Shown: positions 5,488-14,300 of the stretch, one piece after another | How the letters are laid out: each line of letters opens with the position of its first letter | Position numbering within the stretch: the first letter of the stretch is position 1 | Source of the DNA: Candidatus Micrarchaeota archaeon CG1_02_47_40 | GTDB lineage: Archaea > Micrarchaeota > Micrarchaeia > Anstonellales > CG1-02-47-40 | Direction: 5' to 3' | Assembly: GCA_001871475.1 (NCBI GenBank) | Contig: MNVE01000009.1 | Location: 149,120 to 213,119 of the forward strand | DNA: 64,000 nt | Notes under the pieces: model-generated | What the model was told of the DNA's origin: nothing | Seen by the model: the letters and a program-made list of their open reading frames with translations, nothing else | The model's database searches: none | Translations under genes and position numbers: made by a program

Positions 5488-7833
5488 ATGGTGGGAGAAG
5501 TTTTTGCACGGCAAGGAAGCCAAAGCCAAAAGAGCATCGTTAATGGAAAAACCTCCTCATCTTCGCAAACTGCAAAAAATGGGGAGCTTGACATTCGCAT
5601 AGCTGTTGCTGAAAGAAGGATGGAGAATCTGGAAGGAAAAATGATTGAAACAAGAACTGGCAGCGTCAGCAGAGGCGACAATATAATTCAGGCTTTGCAG
5701 AAAATATTCGGCAAGGAAAACGTAATTCTTAGTAAAGCGAAAGATGGGCAGATTTGGATAGTCGGAATTATTGGAAGCGACGGTGCCTTGGTTGATGACC
5801 TGCAGATTTACGTAAATGGATGTTTTGCATGCGAAATACGGGATGGAAAAATAGAATGGAAGACCGCGGAAACGACGATACTCGGGGATTACGCAATTCT
5901 TGATGGCGGAAAACCTATTGAGATAACGATAATGAAAGAAATTCGGGAAAGTGTTCAGCATGATATTAGTATTTCGGACATTAAGATGGTTATGGGGAAA
6001 AATTCAGTTCCTATAAAACTTGAGAAAGTTGAGGTGAAAGCCACTATTGAGCCAGGAGGCATAATATCCTGCCCCTTAGAAAGATTCAAAGGGAGCAAAA
6101 TGCCAAAAGAAAACGGAATTTACCTTGCGATGCTGGATGCGCTGAAAATCAGCTATTCGGTCCCGCCGGATACGCCCTTGGCTTTTGTTCATCACGAATA
6201 CACTGCCCAGCCCATCCTTCTTGAGCGCCTTCCAATACAGGAGATAATGTTGCAACGATGGGGGGCGCAAAGGCATGACGTTTTGCACTCGCCAATGATA
6301 AGCGACGGTATAACTGAATTTGGAAAAATGAGAAGGATGAGGAGTATTTTTGGCGAAGAGGCGGATAGTGCATTTCACGCCCGCCAAAATAATGTGAAAC
6401 CTTTTTTTGATGCGATTATTGAAGAAAACACACCCCTTGCGATTTCCGAAAAGCCATTCATTATGGCTGAAAAGCCGTTTGCATATGAAGAGAAGGAAAA
6501 GGAAGGGCGGAAAGAGAAAAGAAACGAAACAATAAAAGAGATTTGCGAAACGCCCTCTGAAAAAACAAAAGGGGAGGCAAAAGAAAAAAGAGAAATAGAG
6601 GGATGGGCTAAGGAAAAGAGTGAAATCTTCATGTGGGAAAAAGCAAGGGCGCCTGAAACTGCAGAGAAGCAGGCAAAAAACCCAAGAAAAAATGAGTATG
6701 AAATAAAAACTGCTTTCTTAAGCGGAAAAAACGCCGCCTGCGCAATTGGAGAAACATTCGGTGAAAAAAAAGAAGAGAGTAGAACTTCCGGGCGCAGGAA
6801 AGGCGATGAAGTGAAAAATTATTTTGGAAAGAAAGGGGGGGAAGATGAAAAAGGCGGGAGTTCTGGCGGGAAAATGAAAGTGGATGAAAGGAAAAAAGGC
6901 AGAGATTACGGCGAGGAAAAAGATGCCGGCAAAAGGATGAAGCCGAAAAACGGGATGATAGAGAGAAACGCCGCTAAAGAAAGGAAAAAGGAAAATGAAA
7001 AGAAGGAACGCAAAGAGAATGGAAAGAAAGTGCGGAAAGATAAAGAAAATGAGGGGAAAGCCGCTAAAGAACGGCGGAAAAAAGCCGAAAAGAAAAACAG
7101 TAGGGAAAAAGAAGAAAAGAAAGACAGAAAATCCGCAAATGCAGCATCCCAAAAAAACAAATTCAAGGCGATTCTCCTCGACATGGACGGAGTGGTCGCC
7201 CTAAGCGAGAATTTTCACCGCAAAACATTCAACGACGTGCTGAAGTCGCTTGGCATATTCGTGAATAAGAAGGAGTGGATGAAAAAATACGCGGGAATCG
7301 GCTCTCCTAAAATAATGAAGCGTTTGTTCAGACAGCATGGAATAGATGAGGATGCGGCTGAATGGGTGAAGAAAAGGGCGGAGCATTTCAAGAAGGCTCT
7401 GCAAAGGGAAAAGATGCCCTCCGTACCGGGAGTGAAAAAATTCCTAAAATGGGCAAAGCAAAACAGAGTAAAGGTGATGGTAGTGAGTGGCGGGCACTCA
7501 AAAAGCGTCTCAAACATGCTAAAAAATATGGGAATTTCCGGGTTGAAAGTTGTTGGGAGGGATAATGTGAAAAAGCCAAAACCCTCCCCTGATGAATATC
7601 TTCTGGCTGCCAAAAAATTGGGAGTTTCCCCTTCTGAATGCCTTGTGTTTGAGGATTCGCCAACCGGTGTTAGGTCAGCGCGGGGAGCGGGAATGAAATG
7701 CGTCGCGCTTCTTACGACCAACAGAAAAAAAAGGCTTCAAAAGGCTGGTTTTTTCATACGCGATTTCCGTGATGGAAGGCTTGTAAAAATAATTTCACTT
7801 CTTTTTGGAAAGAATTATCAGCCGTATTCCTGA
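5488..7833 (+). CDS. Unknown N-terminal domain + K/E-rich linker + C-terminal HAD-family phosphatase
   Basis: C-terminal KAILLDMDGVVALSENFH...VMVVSGGHSKS...KKPKPSPDEYLLAAKKLG...LVFEDSPTGVRSARGAGM = HAD motifs; ~200-aa charged linker; N-terminal ~330 aa not recognised. Confidence 0.75.
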   Translation: MVGEVFARQGSQSQKSIVNGKTSSSSQTAKNGELDIRIAVAERRMENLEGKMIETRTGSVSRGDNIIQALQKIFGKENVILSKAKDGQIWIVGIIGSDGALVDDLQIYVNGCFACEIRDGKIEWKTAETTILGDYAILDGGKPIEITIMKEIRESVQHDISISDIKMVMGKNSVPIKLEKVEVKATIEPGGIISCPLERFKGSKMPKENGIYLAMLDALKISYSVPPDTPLAFVHHEYTAQPILLERLPIQEIMLQRWGAQRHDVLHSPMISDGITEFGKMRRMRSIFGEEADSAFHARQNNVKPFFDAIIEENTPLAISEKPFIMAEKPFAYEEKEKEGRKEKRNETIKEICETPSEKTKGEAKEKREIEGWAKEKSEIFMWEKARAPETAEKQAKNPRKNEYEIKTAFLSGKNAACAIGETFGEKKEESRTSGRRKGDEVKNYFGKKGGEDEKGGSSGGKMKVDERKKGRDYGEEKDAGKRMKPKNGMIERNAAKERKKENEKKERKENGKKVRKDKENEGKAAKERRKKAEKKNSREKEEKKDRKSANAASQKNKFKAILLDMDGVVALSENFHRKTFNDVLKSLGIFVNKKEWMKKYAGIGSPKIMKRLFRQHGIDEDAAEWVKKRAEHFKKALQREKMPSVPGVKKFLKWAKQNRVKVMVVSGGHSKSVSNMLKNMGISGLKVVGRDNVKKPKPSPDEYLLAAKKLGVSPSECLVFEDSPTGVRSARGAGMKCVALLTTNRKKRLQKAGFFIRDFRDGRLVKIISLLFGKNYQPYS

Positions 7834-7858: not shown

Positions 7859-7866
7859 TATATAAA
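7859..7866 (+). promoter_or_regulatory. Putative archaeal TATA box upstream of nrdJ
   Basis: TATATAAA in acctatataaagcc, ~115 nt before ATG 7980 and ~25 nt before the palindrome at 7892. Confidence 0.5.
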
Positions 7867-7891
7867 GCCTATTCTTGAATATACTCTGCAA

Positions 7892-7907
7892 ACACAATAT
7901 ATTGTGT
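7892..7907 (+). promoter_or_regulatory. NrdR-box-like palindrome 1
   Basis: ACACAATATATTGTGT, a perfect 16-nt palindrome matching the known NrdR consensus acaCwAtATaTwGtgt. Confidence 0.7.
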
Positions 7908-7923
7908 CTTTGAGTCCTCAAAT

Positions 7924-7939
7924 ATGCCATATATTGTGG
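7924..7939 (+). promoter_or_regulatory. NrdR-box-like site 2
   Basis: atgCCATATATTGtgg, starts 32 bp after box 1. Confidence 0.65.
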
Positions 7940-7979
7940 TTTGCACTGTCGAACGATATTCGCATTGTGGGGCGATTCT

Positions 7980-10900
7980 ATGAAGGAAGAAACGGTGCAA
8001 AAGGAGAAGGGAACCGGCATTAGCGTTGCACGTCTTTTTACCCAAAAAGGGGAAAACCCGTTTGAGAAAATTGAATACGAAAAGAGAAATGCTAAAATAA
8101 GCGAGCCTGACGGCAGGGTGGTTTTTGAACTAAAGGATGTTAGCGTGCCAAGAGGATGGTCGCAGCTTGCCACCGACATCGCAGTTTCAAAATATTTCAG
8201 GAAAACAGGCGTGCCGAACACCGGGCACGAAACCTCCGTGAAGGAAGTGATATATAGGATTGCCCATACCTTGCGAGTGGCAGGGGAGAGCAGGGGTTAT
8301 TTTGCCTCGGAAGGGGATGCGGATGCTTTTGAGGCGGAGCTTTCCTACTTGATGCTGACGCAAAGGGGCGCATTCAACTCCCCGGTGTGGTTCAACTGCG
8401 GATTGTACAGTACTTATGGAATAGTTGGAGGGGGAGGGTGCTGGTATTTTGACGAAAAGGACTCCTCTTTCAAATCCCTTGAGAACAATTACGAGCGCCC
8501 GCAGTGCTCCGCCTGCTTCATACAAGCTGTTGACGACGACCTGATGTCCATATTTGAGCTTGCAAAAAACGAGGCGCGCCTTTTCAAGTACGGCTCGGGG
8601 ACTGGAACTAATTTCTCAAAATTGAGGGCGAAGAATGAGAAGCTCTCCGGCGGAGGCACCTCGTCAGGATTGATGAGCTTTCTGGAGGTGCTTGACAGGG
8701 GGGCTGGCGCCACAAAATCCGGGGGCACCACAAGAAGGGCTGCGAAAATGGTGTGCCTTGACATAGATCACCCGGAGATAGTGGATTTCATCAACTGGAA
8801 AGTCAGGGAGGAAAAGAAGGTGCATGCACTTATTTCTGCGGGCTATTCCTCGGATTTCAACGGTGATGCGTACCATACGATTTCGGGGCAGAATTCTAAC
8901 AACTCCGTGCGCATAACGGATGAGTTTATGCAGGCATACTTAAACGGGCTTAAATGGAGCACGAAAGGGAGGATGGATGGGAAGCCCGTAGATGAGTATG
9001 ATGCAAAGGACCTCATGAAAATGATTGCTGCGGCTGCATGGGAGTGTGCCGACCCCGGGGTGCAGTTTGACACAACAATTAATGCATGGCATACCTGCCC
9101 GAATTCAGGGAGGATAAATGCATCTAACCCGTGCAGCGAGTACATGTTTCTTGACAATTCAGCATGTAATCTTTCTTCTCTCAATATAACAAAGTTTGCA
9201 GATGATGCGGGAAGGATTGATTTGCAGAAATTCAGGCATGCAGTGAAAATATTCACTACCGCAATGGAGATAATAGTTGATTTTTCCTCTTACCCTACAA
9301 AGGAGATTGCACAGAACAGCCATATTTTCCGCCCGCTTGGCTTGGGGTATGCAAATCTTGGGACGTGGCTTACGATAAGCGGATTGCCTTATGATAGCGA
9401 AAAAGGAAGGGCTGCCGCAGCTGCAATCACTGCCATACTCACAGGTGAGGCATACGCGGTTTCTGCGGAACTTGCGGGAAGAATGGGCCCTTTTGAAGCA
9501 TATGAAAAAAACCGTGATGCGATGCTTGCAGTGATAAAAAAACACCGCAATTGCGCTGCAAAAATAAGCGAGAAGGATTGCCCCGAGTATCTTCTAAAAG
9601 GGGCAAGGGAGTGCTGGGATATTGCGCTTGAGGAGGGGGAGCGGCACGGATATAGAAATGCACAGGTCAGCGTGCTTGCGCCAACCGGCACCATCGGATT
9701 ACTCATGGACTGCGACACCACCGGGGTGGAGCCGGAATTTGCGCTTGTGAAATGGAAAAAATTGGCAGGCGGGGGCTATTTCAAAATAGTTAACCATTCC
9801 ATGGAGCAGTCGCTTTTGAATTTGGGATATGCTGTGCCACAGGTTGAGGAGATAAAAAAATATGTCATAGGGCACGGCACGCTTGATGATGCACCGTATA
9901 TGAATCCGGATGCGCTTCGCGCGCTTGGGTATTCTGATGAGCAGATAAAGGAGGCTGCCGCGTATGTAAAAAGGATGGGCAGCATTGATGAATGGACTCC
10001 GCATGTGAACATGGCGGAGCTTAAGAAGAAGGGGCTTTCCGAAGAGCAGATTGGGGAGGCAAGGATTTATGTCGGCGGGGCGGAAATGCTTGAGGGCGCG
10101 CCCTACATCTCCGCAGAGCAGTTAGCAGTGTTTGACTGCGCAAACCGCTGCGGGGCGGGAAAGCGCTTCATAGAGCCGATGGGGCATGTGCGCATGATGG
10201 CTGCGGTGCAGCCCTTCATTTCAGGCGCGATTTCAAAAACGATAAACATGCCAAAGGAAAGCACCATTGAGGAAGTGGAGAGGCTGTACTTAGAGTCGTG
10301 GAAGATGGGGCTGAAAGCGGTTGCGATTTACCGCGACGGCTCAAAGATGTCGCAGCCGCTCTCGGCAAAAAGCGGGGAGAATGGGTGCTGCAAGGAGAAA
10401 GACGATGAAAAGGAAGAGAAAATAGAAAGGGGAAAGAAAGAGGCGCTTCCCAAAAAAAGGTACGGCTTCACTGTTGAGTCGCTGGTTGGAGGGCATAAGG
10501 TGTTTTTGAGGACAGGGGAGTATGCGGACGGGCGGCTCGGGGAGATTTTCATTGACATGCACAAGGAGGGGGCGGCTTACCGCAGTTTGCTGAATTGCTT
10601 TGCGATTTCAATTTCAATCGGCTTGCAGTACGGGGTGCCCCTGCAAAAATACGTTGATTCGTTCACTTTCACGCGCTTTGAGCCGAACGGGATGGTGGAC
10701 CACCCGAACATAAAGAGCGCTACCAGCATACTTGATTTCATCTTCAGGGTGGTGGGGATGGAGTATTTGGGAAGGACTGATTTCCTGCATGTGAAGCCCA
10801 AGGTGGTGGATGAGATACAGGGGATGCACGGCGGGAATGGGAATGGCTTGCACCACATCCCAAGCAGCGAACTGATTTCCGGGGGACGCACAAGCATAAA

Positions 10901-11054
10901 GGAATGGCTGCCAAAAGATGATGCCGGGCCGGATAAGCAGCTTTCCGAGCTTATGGGAGACGCGCCTGCCTGCGACGTGTGCGGGCATATTACAGTCAGG
11001 AACGGCTCGTGCTACAAATGCTTAAACTGCGGCAATTCGATGGGATGCTCTTGA
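7980..11054 (+). CDS. nrdJ: Adenosylcobalamin-dependent (class II) ribonucleoside-diphosphate reductase
   Basis: [54 protein letters not shown]-terminal CxxC zinc ribbon; start taken at [11 protein letters not shown]. Confidence 0.92.
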
Positions 11055-11428
11055 AAATACTCGTATTTGGCAACCCCCTTGTGAAGGAGGATTCACTTCC
11101 TTTAAGGGTAATGGGAAAATTGCAGGGGAAATTTCCGAAAATAGAGTTTGTGCTTCTTGATGCGGCTGAAAACATTCCGGAGAAAGAGGATTTGATTATA
11201 CTGGATACTGTTTTTGGCATAAAGACGGTGAAAATGATAGAAGAGCTGGAGATTTTCGTGCAAAACAAGAAATTGACGATGCACGACTGTGATTTGGGGT
11301 TTCAGCTTCTTGTGATGAAGAAGATGGGCTTGCTTGGAAAAGTGAAAATAATAGGGGTGCCGCCGGAGTATGGAGAGGAAAAGGCGCGAAATGCGGTTGA
11401 GAGGGCGATAAGAAAACTTTGCAAATAA
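11045..11428 (+). CDS. Hydrogenase maturation protease (HycI/HyaD-like)
   Basis: [24 protein letters not shown]...[20 protein letters not shown]...[12 protein letters not shown]; adjacent to hydrogenase genes. Confidence 0.65.
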
Positions 11429-11431
11429 TCC

Positions 11432-11953
11432 TTATCTTCTTCGCGGCTTCTCACCTTCAAGAAGCTGATTTATCGTGCTTATCACTTTTTCCCGCTCAAG
11501 CATGTCCAGGATGCCGCCAAAGAGGACCGGCAGGCTTATGCAAAGCTCGCCAGCCGCGTAATAAGAGTGGAAGCCGGAAAAATCGCGGGAGTATGTTTCG
11601 CTGGGCGGCAGGTAAAAAAAGAGTTCGTGCTTTTTGGAGTATAGCTTGCGTGCATTGTTTGCTATCTCGCCTGCTATTTTCTCGTCCGGTATCTTTAGTG
11701 AAATGTAATATACCATCTGCCCGTGCTTTGTAGAGATGGAGCCGTCTTGAGCTTTCTCCACCTTCAAATCATAGACCGCAAGCTTGACGCTGCCCTCGTA
11801 TTGTTGTATGCATTCATCCAGGTGTTTTTGCAGTCCGTTTTTCCCTTTCCAGGGGATGGAAACGCCTTCCAGCTCCCTGTACAGGATAAACGTTTCTCTC
11901 TTTTCTTCCTCTTTCTTTGGCGCTTGCACCATCAGTTGCATTATCGGCAGCAT
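11432..11953 (-). CDS. Hypothetical protein in the hydrogenase cluster
   Basis: 173-aa ORF between the protease and the large-subunit gene. Confidence 0.6.
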   Translation of the reverse strand: MLPIMQLMVQAPKKEEEKRETFILYRELEGVSIPWKGKNGLQKHLDECIQQYEGSVKLAVYDLKVEKAQDGSISTKHGQMVYYISLKIPDEKIAGEIANNARKLYSKKHELFFYLPPSETYSRDFSGFHSYYAAGELCISLPVLFGGILDMLEREKVISTINQLLEGEKPRRR

Positions 11954-11968
11954 TTTTGCACCTTCAAT

Positions 11969-13255
11969 TTATTTCCTGTTCCACTTCACCTTCAAAAAAT
12001 GCGTGGCACAGCTCATGCAGGGGTCGTATGCGCGTATGAGCTTCTCTATATCGTGCTCTATCGTGTGCTCATCCAGGTGGATGTGCGACTGCACAAGGCG
12101 GGCAATATCATGCTCTATCTGTATCTGGTTCTGCGCGGTTGGTATCACTAGGTTGGCATCAATAACTTTTCCCTCCTTGCCGAGCTTAACCTCGTAATAG
12201 AGCACCCCCCTTGGCGCCTCTATCGCGCCGACTCCCACTCCCTCCTTTGGCAGAATGGGCTTTTTCTCCTCATCAGTGAATTCCATTCCTTCAAGAAGCT
12301 CGCAGGAATAATCTATTGAGTGCAGAATTTCAATTGCCTGCGCAAGGTTTGAAAGAAAAACATCATGCGAGGGAAAGCGGGTTAGGTATTTTTTGCAATC
12401 TTTTTTCGTTTCCCTGTGAAGGTGCTCCTTGTTGGTATTCGTCCTTGCAAGCGCGCCTACGCTATAGCCTTTCAAATCAAGCACGAAGCCGGTCGCCTGT
12501 GAATAGGGCATCACCACCCTGTGAAGATGGTTGAAGAAATTTGACTCTGGTATGCAAAGCCCGTTTGAATCGCAGAGCTTGTTCCCAGTATAAGTATAAT
12601 CCTCGCTCATAAGAGAGACGAAATTCGAATCGGTTTCAAAGGAAAACGGCTGTTTTGAGAAGAGTTCTATCAGTTCAAGCACCTTTGGGCGCACCGTATT
12701 CAACTGCACAACAAGCGCGCGCGCATCCTCCTTTTTCGGGGTGTTTGAAAAATACCCCACATTCTGGAAGGTGGAGTGTATCGCCCTGCCTGCGATTTTG
12801 GTGCACAGTTCGTTGCCTGCCTTCTTCACCTCAAAGCAGTCTTTCACCCATTTCTCCTCTTCCCCCTTAAACTCAAATACCGAATCCTTGCCGAAAATAT
12901 CCGGCATGCAAAAGAGATAGAGGTGCATCGCATGGTCGCGTATCCAAAGCCCCATATTGTTTAGTTTGCGCAAAGCGGCTGTTTGCGCGCTTGGGGCAAA
13001 TCCAACTGCATTCTCAACCGCCTCCATGCAGCAGGTTAAATGCGCTATGCTGCATGTGCCGCATATCCTGCTTACAAGTTGAGGGACTGTATTGAAGGGC
13101 TTTCCGCGCACCGCCTGCGTGTAAAATCGCTTATTCTCATTTATCACAAGCTTTGCGGACTGCACAATGTTGTCGCGCACTGAAACTGTAAGGGCGGCAT
13201 GCCCCTCAATTTTGCTTATCCCCTCAATGTTTATGTCAAAATCCCTTCCATGCAT
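11969..13255 (-). CDS. [NiFe] hydrogenase large (alpha) subunit, group 3-like
   Basis: N-terminal RICGTCSIAH and C-terminal DPCMSCATHFLKVKWNRK nickel-ligand motifs. Confidence 0.9.
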   Translation of the reverse strand: MHGRDFDINIEGISKIEGHAALTVSVRDNIVQSAKLVINENKRFYTQAVRGKPFNTVPQLVSRICGTCSIAHLTCCMEAVENAVGFAPSAQTAALRKLNNMGLWIRDHAMHLYLFCMPDIFGKDSVFEFKGEEEKWVKDCFEVKKAGNELCTKIAGRAIHSTFQNVGYFSNTPKKEDARALVVQLNTVRPKVLELIELFSKQPFSFETDSNFVSLMSEDYTYTGNKLCDSNGLCIPESNFFNHLHRVVMPYSQATGFVLDLKGYSVGALARTNTNKEHLHRETKKDCKKYLTRFPSHDVFLSNLAQAIEILHSIDYSCELLEGMEFTDEEKKPILPKEGVGVGAIEAPRGVLYYEVKLGKEGKVIDANLVIPTAQNQIQIEHDIARLVQSHIHLDEHTIEHDIEKLIRAYDPCMSCATHFLKVKWNRK

Positions 13256-13261
13256 ATGGCA

Positions 13262-13765
13262 TCAAACCTCTGATTTTTTTCTTATGCCGAATTCCAAAAG
13301 CGCATCCTCAACGGCTTTCACGAAAGCCGCCTCATCCATGGGGCAGCCATTCACCACCCCGTCAACTTTCACGTGCTCGCCTATGGGAGTCACCTTCTCT
13401 TTGTGCCCGAACCTCTCCATTATTGGTTTTATTTCAGCAAGCGTCTTTTCATCGAAATTATTTCTCTGTGAGGAGGGGGCGCCGTTTGCCGCGCACGAAC
13501 CGATTGCTATCACTTTTTTTGCATTCTTTCTTATCCTGCGGAGCAGGTTTTCCTCCTTGAAAGTGGAAATCGCGCCTTCTATGAACGCCACGTCAAGCCC
13601 GCCATCCCCGTCCAGTTCATTCTTCTTTTTCAGCGCGCGCGCATATTTTATTTCCAAAAGGCTTCCCCATTCTGCATACTTGTAATTCAGCGATTCTATC
13701 ATTACCATTATGCAGCCCTCGCAGCCCGTGAATGAGAAAAAGCCCACCTTTAGTTTGTTTTGCAT
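13262..13765 (-). CDS. [NiFe] hydrogenase small (delta) subunit
   Basis: GFFSFTGCEGC, IGSCAANG, VNGCPMDE proximal cluster ligands. Confidence 0.85.
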   Translation of the reverse strand: MQNKLKVGFFSFTGCEGCIMVMIESLNYKYAEWGSLLEIKYARALKKKNELDGDGGLDVAFIEGAISTFKEENLLRRIRKNAKKVIAIGSCAANGAPSSQRNNFDEKTLAEIKPIMERFGHKEKVTPIGEHVKVDGVVNGCPMDEAAFVKAVEDALLEFGIRKKSEV

Positions 13766-13787
13766 AACGATGCAGCTCGGTAAAAAA

Positions 13788-14300
13788 TCAAACAAATGCG
13801 TTCATTATTCCGGTGAATGCGTTTGCAACCGACCAGAAAAAGCCCCGCAGGAAATCCCCTGGGAATTCCACTTTTATTTCCCCGTTTCCTATCGCAAGCC
13901 GCATTTCCTTTGCCTCATCCTTTGAGTTATATATTTTCTCCGCAGTTTCCTCGCTCGTGCTTATCGTTATTGTGGGGTTGGGGTAGGCGCCAAGCAAAAC
14001 CGAGTCAAGCTGAAGAATTCCTGCTGTGTTTTTGTGCGCCGATGCCTTTATCCGCACTTCTTCCCCCTCATTTGTTTTTATTAGTGTGTTTATTCTCTCG
14101 TTGGAACTGATGAATGGAGAGAGGGTGCTTGGGAGTTTTTCCGCCGCCTTTTCATTCAAGAGAGTTAGCTTTTCCTGCTGTATCTGCCCACCAACGAAAT
14201 AAGACTGCATCATGCGCTCGGAGAATGCGCCTGCGAAAAGCGCGCCTGCAAGAAGAAACGAGAATAAAAGAAAAATGAATGCTCCCCTCATCAAAACCAC
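13788..14300 (-). CDS. Secreted/membrane-anchored hypothetical protein
   Basis: N-terminal signal/TM segment MRGAFIFLLFSFLLAGALFAGAF. Confidence 0.55.
   Translation of the reverse strand: MVLMRGAFIFLLFSFLLAGALFAGAFSERMMQSYFVGGQIQQEKLTLLNEKAAEKLPSTLSPFISSNERINTLIKTNEGEEVRIKASAHKNTAGILQLDSVLLGAYPNPTITISTSEETAEKIYNSKDEAKEMRLAIGNGEIKVEFPGDFLRGFFWSVANAFTGIMNAFV

Follow-up and report, generated by a model that had tools for sequence, protein, structure and literature searches.

The nrdJ promoter and its paired palindromes

The window analysed here, a continuous 64-kb stretch of DNA, carries the gene nrdJ preceded by a TATA box and by two palindromes that resemble the binding sites of the repressor NrdR (Table 1). 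The initial annotation had taken the gene for nrdJ, an assignment supported by the domains of a class II ribonucleotide reductase (RNR) and by a score of 1279.8 bits against NF005122 (cut-off 859). The nrdJ product lacks an ATP-cone. A search of the genome for RNR genes returned one nrdJ match and our searches for a class III NrdD found none, and a second RNR is therefore rejected. Two neighbouring frames were also noted. One, upstream, encodes a long lysine/glutamate-rich low-complexity middle region and a C-terminal HAD phosphatase domain; the other, which resembles hydrogenase maturation protease genes, overlaps the end of nrdJ and is adjoined by minus-strand genes for NiFe sulfhydrogenase-like alpha and delta subunits.

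Table 1. Coordinates of the features discussed (positions refer to the window unless a contig or locus is given)
Feature	Position	Strand	Description
Frame upstream of nrdJ	5488-7833		781 aa
nrdJ promoter TATA box	7859..7866	+	TATATAAA
TGCAA	7887..7891	+	immediately 5' to box 1, at about the predicted start of transcription
NrdR box 1 (distal)	7892..7907	.	perfect palindrome ACACAATATATTGTGT, 16/16 to consensus
Inter-box spacer	7908..7923	.	16 bp
NrdR box 2 (proximal)	7924..7939	.	ATGCCATATATTGTGG, 12/16 to consensus
nrdJ	7980..11054	+	class II (adenosylcobalamin-dependent) RNR, 1024 aa; PF08471, PF02867, TSCPD
Maturation protease-like gene and adjoining NiFe sulfhydrogenase-like genes	10979-13795		the protease-like gene overlaps the nrdJ end
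nrdR	contig C11, 152751-153209	minus	153 aa; TIGR00244, ATP-cone
NrdR-NrdD fusion	L274:1046-3673
NrdR-NrdD fusion	L280:1017-3662
NrdR-NrdD fusion	L275:981-3428	-
NrdR-NrdD fusion	L276:1122-3596	-
NrdR-NrdD fusion	L279:1064-3670	-
Haloarchaeal nrdR-nrdBA promoter	L315:3424-3470		weak pair
Haloarchaeal nrdR-nrdBA promoter	L316:3425-3471		weak pair

The NrdR-box consensus is the 16-bp palindrome acaCwAtATaTwGtgt. Box 1, a perfect ACACWATATATWGTGT palindrome, agrees with it throughout, as the initial annotation had stated; it is the sole match with three or fewer mismatches in the window, where 0.18 would be expected, and the exact box occurs once in the whole 1.15-Mb genome. The second site that had been proposed is likewise present, starting 32 bp after the first, although it is the weaker of the two. 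The core ATATATTGTG of box 1 is found again, identical, at this distance in box 2, and the length of the spacer lies inside the 14–17 bp required of an operator whose boxes are separated by integral helical turns. The pair also fits the 'short' class of the regular expression from a 2025 survey of boxes and spacings that was confined to bacterial genomes. Both boxes lie between the TATA box, which is found where it had been claimed, and the nrdJ ATG, and box 2 ends 40 bp from the latter.

The DNA upstream of nrdJ is intergenic, low in G+C and contains TATA-like runs, and such a promoter might look palindromic by chance. However, no other pair with a summed score of at least 28/32 at 31–33 bp occurs in the window, and none was obtained in 30 × 64 kb of Markov sequence. 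The arrangement is moreover conserved across genera, families, and phyla, and because of this conservation we consider the probability of a chance resemblance to be negligible.

The NrdR protein encoded in the same genome

A search for a protein combining a zinc ribbon with an ATP-cone, which had been suggested as a check, identified a gene for NrdR on another contig. Its product scores 190 bits against TIGR00244, above the curated cut-off of 124.65, and thus belongs to the NrdR family. The zinc ribbon is formed by cysteines 3, 6, 31, and 34 (two CxxC motifs, the N-terminus being MRCPYC), and the ATP-cone (PF03477, 81.8 bits) is the only match to this domain in the genome. The protein aligns over nearly its whole length with an E. 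coli NrdR whose structure has been solved (9fxk, E 9e-38). It is unlikely that the contig is a contaminant, since nrdR is also present in the nearest relative (66% identity) and since about 9 kb from nrdR the contig encodes what we take, from its translation, to be an archaeal Cdc48-type ATPase. No box pair was found upstream of nrdR in this genome, and autoregulation of the gene here is rejected on that ground.

The best explanation of the two boxes, in which we place high confidence, is that they form the operator of this NrdR, which is encoded elsewhere in the same genome.

Box pairs and promoter geometry in related archaea

In the archaeal order of the host, which is very probably a micrarchaeon, we searched the 500 bp ahead of each RNR gene or nrdR-RNR operon for a pair of boxes 31–33 bp apart, requiring a sum of at least 24/32. 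Such a pair is present in 23 of the 30 RNR promoters from genomes that encode NrdR, versus none of 17 from genomes that do not (Fisher p about 4e-7, with kinship ignored). Palindromes with a permuted half-site, used as a control, were found at 0.2 promoters on average and at a maximum of 6. The start-to-start spacing of the boxes peaks at 32 bp. In seven of the 30 promoters no clear pair can be recognized with this consensus, and some of these seem to use ATACTACTAATAGTAT variants. Most of the genomes without nrdR carry another RNR type; an orthologous nrdJ without nrdR is found only in G033 and G036, both of which are 84% complete. Taken literally, the regular expression of the bacterial survey matches 9/30 of the nrdR-containing relatives and 1/17 of those lacking nrdR, and we rejected it as a classifier because it is too strict for many archaeal boxes. 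Four genomes (G024, G048, G054, and G058) have nrdJ matches that are interrupted inside long open frames, reaching 1920 aa, in an intein-like manner.

AT-rich dyads are common archaeal operators, and the palindromes might therefore bind another archaeal regulator, with NrdR acting elsewhere. Binding of NrdR at these sites is itself deduced, and 59 genomes contain 13 boxes with no more than one mismatch, of which two are not followed by RNR genes. However, the remaining 11 precede RNR or nrdR genes. A different regulator would also have to account for a match to the full 16-bp NrdR consensus, for two boxes about three turns apart, and for sites that occur at class II and class III RNR genes and at nrdR itself and are absent from genomes without nrdR. 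We thus judge another regulator to be very improbable and retain NrdR as the protein that probably recognizes the boxes.

The position of the pair relative to the TATA box is fixed, in two ways. Among the ten nrdJ promoters with a pair, the distance from the start of the TATAAA/TTTAAA element to box 1 is 31 bp in nine and 33 bp in the tenth, and in the one nrdR-nrdJ promoter with a pair the TATA box is again 31 bp before box 1. The corresponding distance is 5–7 bp in all 11 promoters of the second kind, which comprise nrdR-nrdD operons and two ATP-cone RNR promoters. The TATA columns are invariant in our alignment (A1), and the TGCAA directly 5' of box 1 is largely kept across the nrdJ promoters of the relatives. 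The scan of related promoters that had been recommended thus yielded a pair that recurs with constant spacing and in a constant position relative to the TATA box. The initial annotation was to be given up if the genome and its close relatives had no NrdR homolog and the sites were not conserved upstream of orthologous nrdJ genes; a homolog was found, and the sites are conserved. In six of nine nrdR-nrdD operon promoters (loci L044, L045, L049, L061, L064, and L066 of genomes G002, G010, G034, G008, G028, and G004) we also observed a conserved TTGCAC element 33–35 bp upstream of box 1.

Archaeal transcripts begin some 25 bp beyond the TATA box, and this distance places the predicted start of nrdJ around the TGCAA, near 7888-7890. 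The operator of class II promoters would accordingly stretch from around the start site as far as +50, and that of class III promoters would straddle the start. Either arrangement would be expected to impede the initiation complex, though not at the same step. Since the boxes of the nrdJ promoter in the window lie downstream of the TATA box, beginning at about the predicted start, it is more probable here that initiation or promoter escape is blocked than that NrdR competes directly with TBP.

The larger inverted repeat in which the initial annotation had placed the boxes (7887-7902 and 7929-7945) exists, but its arms, GTGTTTGCA versus GTGGTTTGCA, are not continuous and include a one-base bulge; when searched without gaps, it has 25-nt arms that are 80% complementary. 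Such a repeat could instead act in the RNA, as a leader hairpin or as a riboswitch that controls nrdJ. A cobalamin riboswitch would suit a B12-dependent enzyme, and the leader in the window can fold into a strong hairpin in which the two boxes pair with each other (7887–7945, z -4.8). However, a search of Rfam returned no credible match to a cobalamin or other riboswitch, only unrelated ones below threshold. In addition, the hairpin is gone in relatives (z about 0 in G039, G052, G012, G054, and G058) while the boxes stay. In the nrdR-nrdD promoters, where the TATA box begins only 5–7 bp before box 1, this box precedes the expected start and would be left out of the transcript. Pairing between the boxes in RNA is a by-product of the largely palindromic sequence of each box. 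On these grounds we reject control by an RNA structure, which we regard as very improbable, in favour of a DNA operator.

Predicted regulation and relation to known NrdR systems

We infer binding, nucleotide control, and repression by analogy with bacterial NrdR, and the start site from its distance to the TATA box. An increase of dATP relative to ATP would lead the ATP-cone of NrdR to load both nucleotides, and the loaded protein would form a tetramer whose zinc ribbons contact the two boxes from the same face of the helix, shutting the promoter. Bound NrdR would then stop the complex of TBP, TFB, and RNA polymerase from opening or leaving the nrdJ promoter. Because nrdJ, without an ATP-cone, is the sole RNR found and NrdR the sole ATP-cone protein found, feedback of dATP on dNTP synthesis in this cell probably operates via transcription.

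Outside the order of the host we applied a looser threshold of at least 22/32 for the pair, which is present at 22 of 29 nrdR loci in Thermoplasmatota and at 20 of 30 in the phylum that contains Woesearchaeota. In AT-rich Thermoplasmatota some permuted controls equal the score of the real motif, so that the argument there rests on the conservation of position and spacing. In some archaeal phyla NrdR is frequent rather than rare: proteins above the curated cut-off are encoded by 133/295 genomes of the host's phylum, 168/236 of the Woesearchaeota-containing phylum, and 32/194 of Thermoplasmatota. A tree of 193 NrdR sequences, built by a quick method with narrow bacterial sampling, requires few changes between bacteria and archaea, with weak support. 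One record titled Arcobacter sp. (L103, DYJN01000001.1) carries an NrdR that resembles those of Acidobacteria and may be misnamed.

Five archaeal open frames of 816–882 aa, from two phyla, encode a full NrdR in frame with a class III NrdD. Several of these fusion genes have a box pair upstream, with scores of up to 28/32 (L280), and four further long frames (L273, L277, L278, and L281) are candidate fusions. Our broader proposal, for and against which we see about equal odds, is that control of RNR by NrdR is a widespread native system of DPANN archaea and Thermoplasmatota, acting on TATA promoters with the operator in one of at least two set arrangements (in class II box 1 coincides with the start site, in class III it abuts the TATA box). 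In some lineages it would have been compressed into an NrdR-NrdD fusion, a reductase carrying its own dATP-sensing repressor. With this system, a dNTP-sensing repressor of bacterial type can be tested on the eukaryote-like transcription machinery of archaea. It also offers, for uncultured DPANN archaea, a predicted regulon whose signal is known, which is rare.

The kind of system is already known, and the archaeal operators seem undescribed. NrdR has been known from some archaea, chiefly haloarchaea (PMC3019208), according to a 2014 review archaea have no NrdR boxes (PMC4009431), and later papers called NrdR rare in this domain. Our literature search, which mostly covered papers available without subscription, found no description of archaeal NrdR boxes.

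The closest counterpart is the NrdR regulon of bacteria such as E. coli, Streptomyces coelicolor, Listeria, and Streptococcus (PMC9110341, PMC12051234, PMC12176259), which has the same type of repressor, with zinc ribbon and ATP-cone, and paired 16-bp palindromes of the same consensus at RNR promoters. In bacteria, a tetramer of NrdR loaded with ATP and dATP occupies the two boxes, and binding is tightest when the spacer is 15–16 bp (PMC9110341, PMC12051234); this is also the common spacer in bacteria, placing the boxes three turns apart centre to centre (PMC12051234). The spacer in the window falls in this range, and the archaeal protein and operator contain the elements that such a mechanism requires. 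In contrast to the bacterial regulon, in which nrdR is often part of the RNR operon, nrdR here lies far from nrdJ without a box pair of its own, and a constant distance separates the operator from the TATA box of an archaeal TBP/TFB promoter. Archaeal NrdR is tied to RNR genes in the nrdR-nrdBA operons of haloarchaea (Natronomonas, Halomicrobium) as well. However, these encode a class I RNR, are often located on plasmids, and have been ascribed to transfer from bacteria (PMC3019208). The two haloarchaeal NrdRs that we sampled form their own group in the quick tree. Haloarchaeal nrdR-nrdBA promoters (L315 and L316) carry a weak pair of NrdR-box-like sites about 30–31 bp apart that scores 20–21/32.
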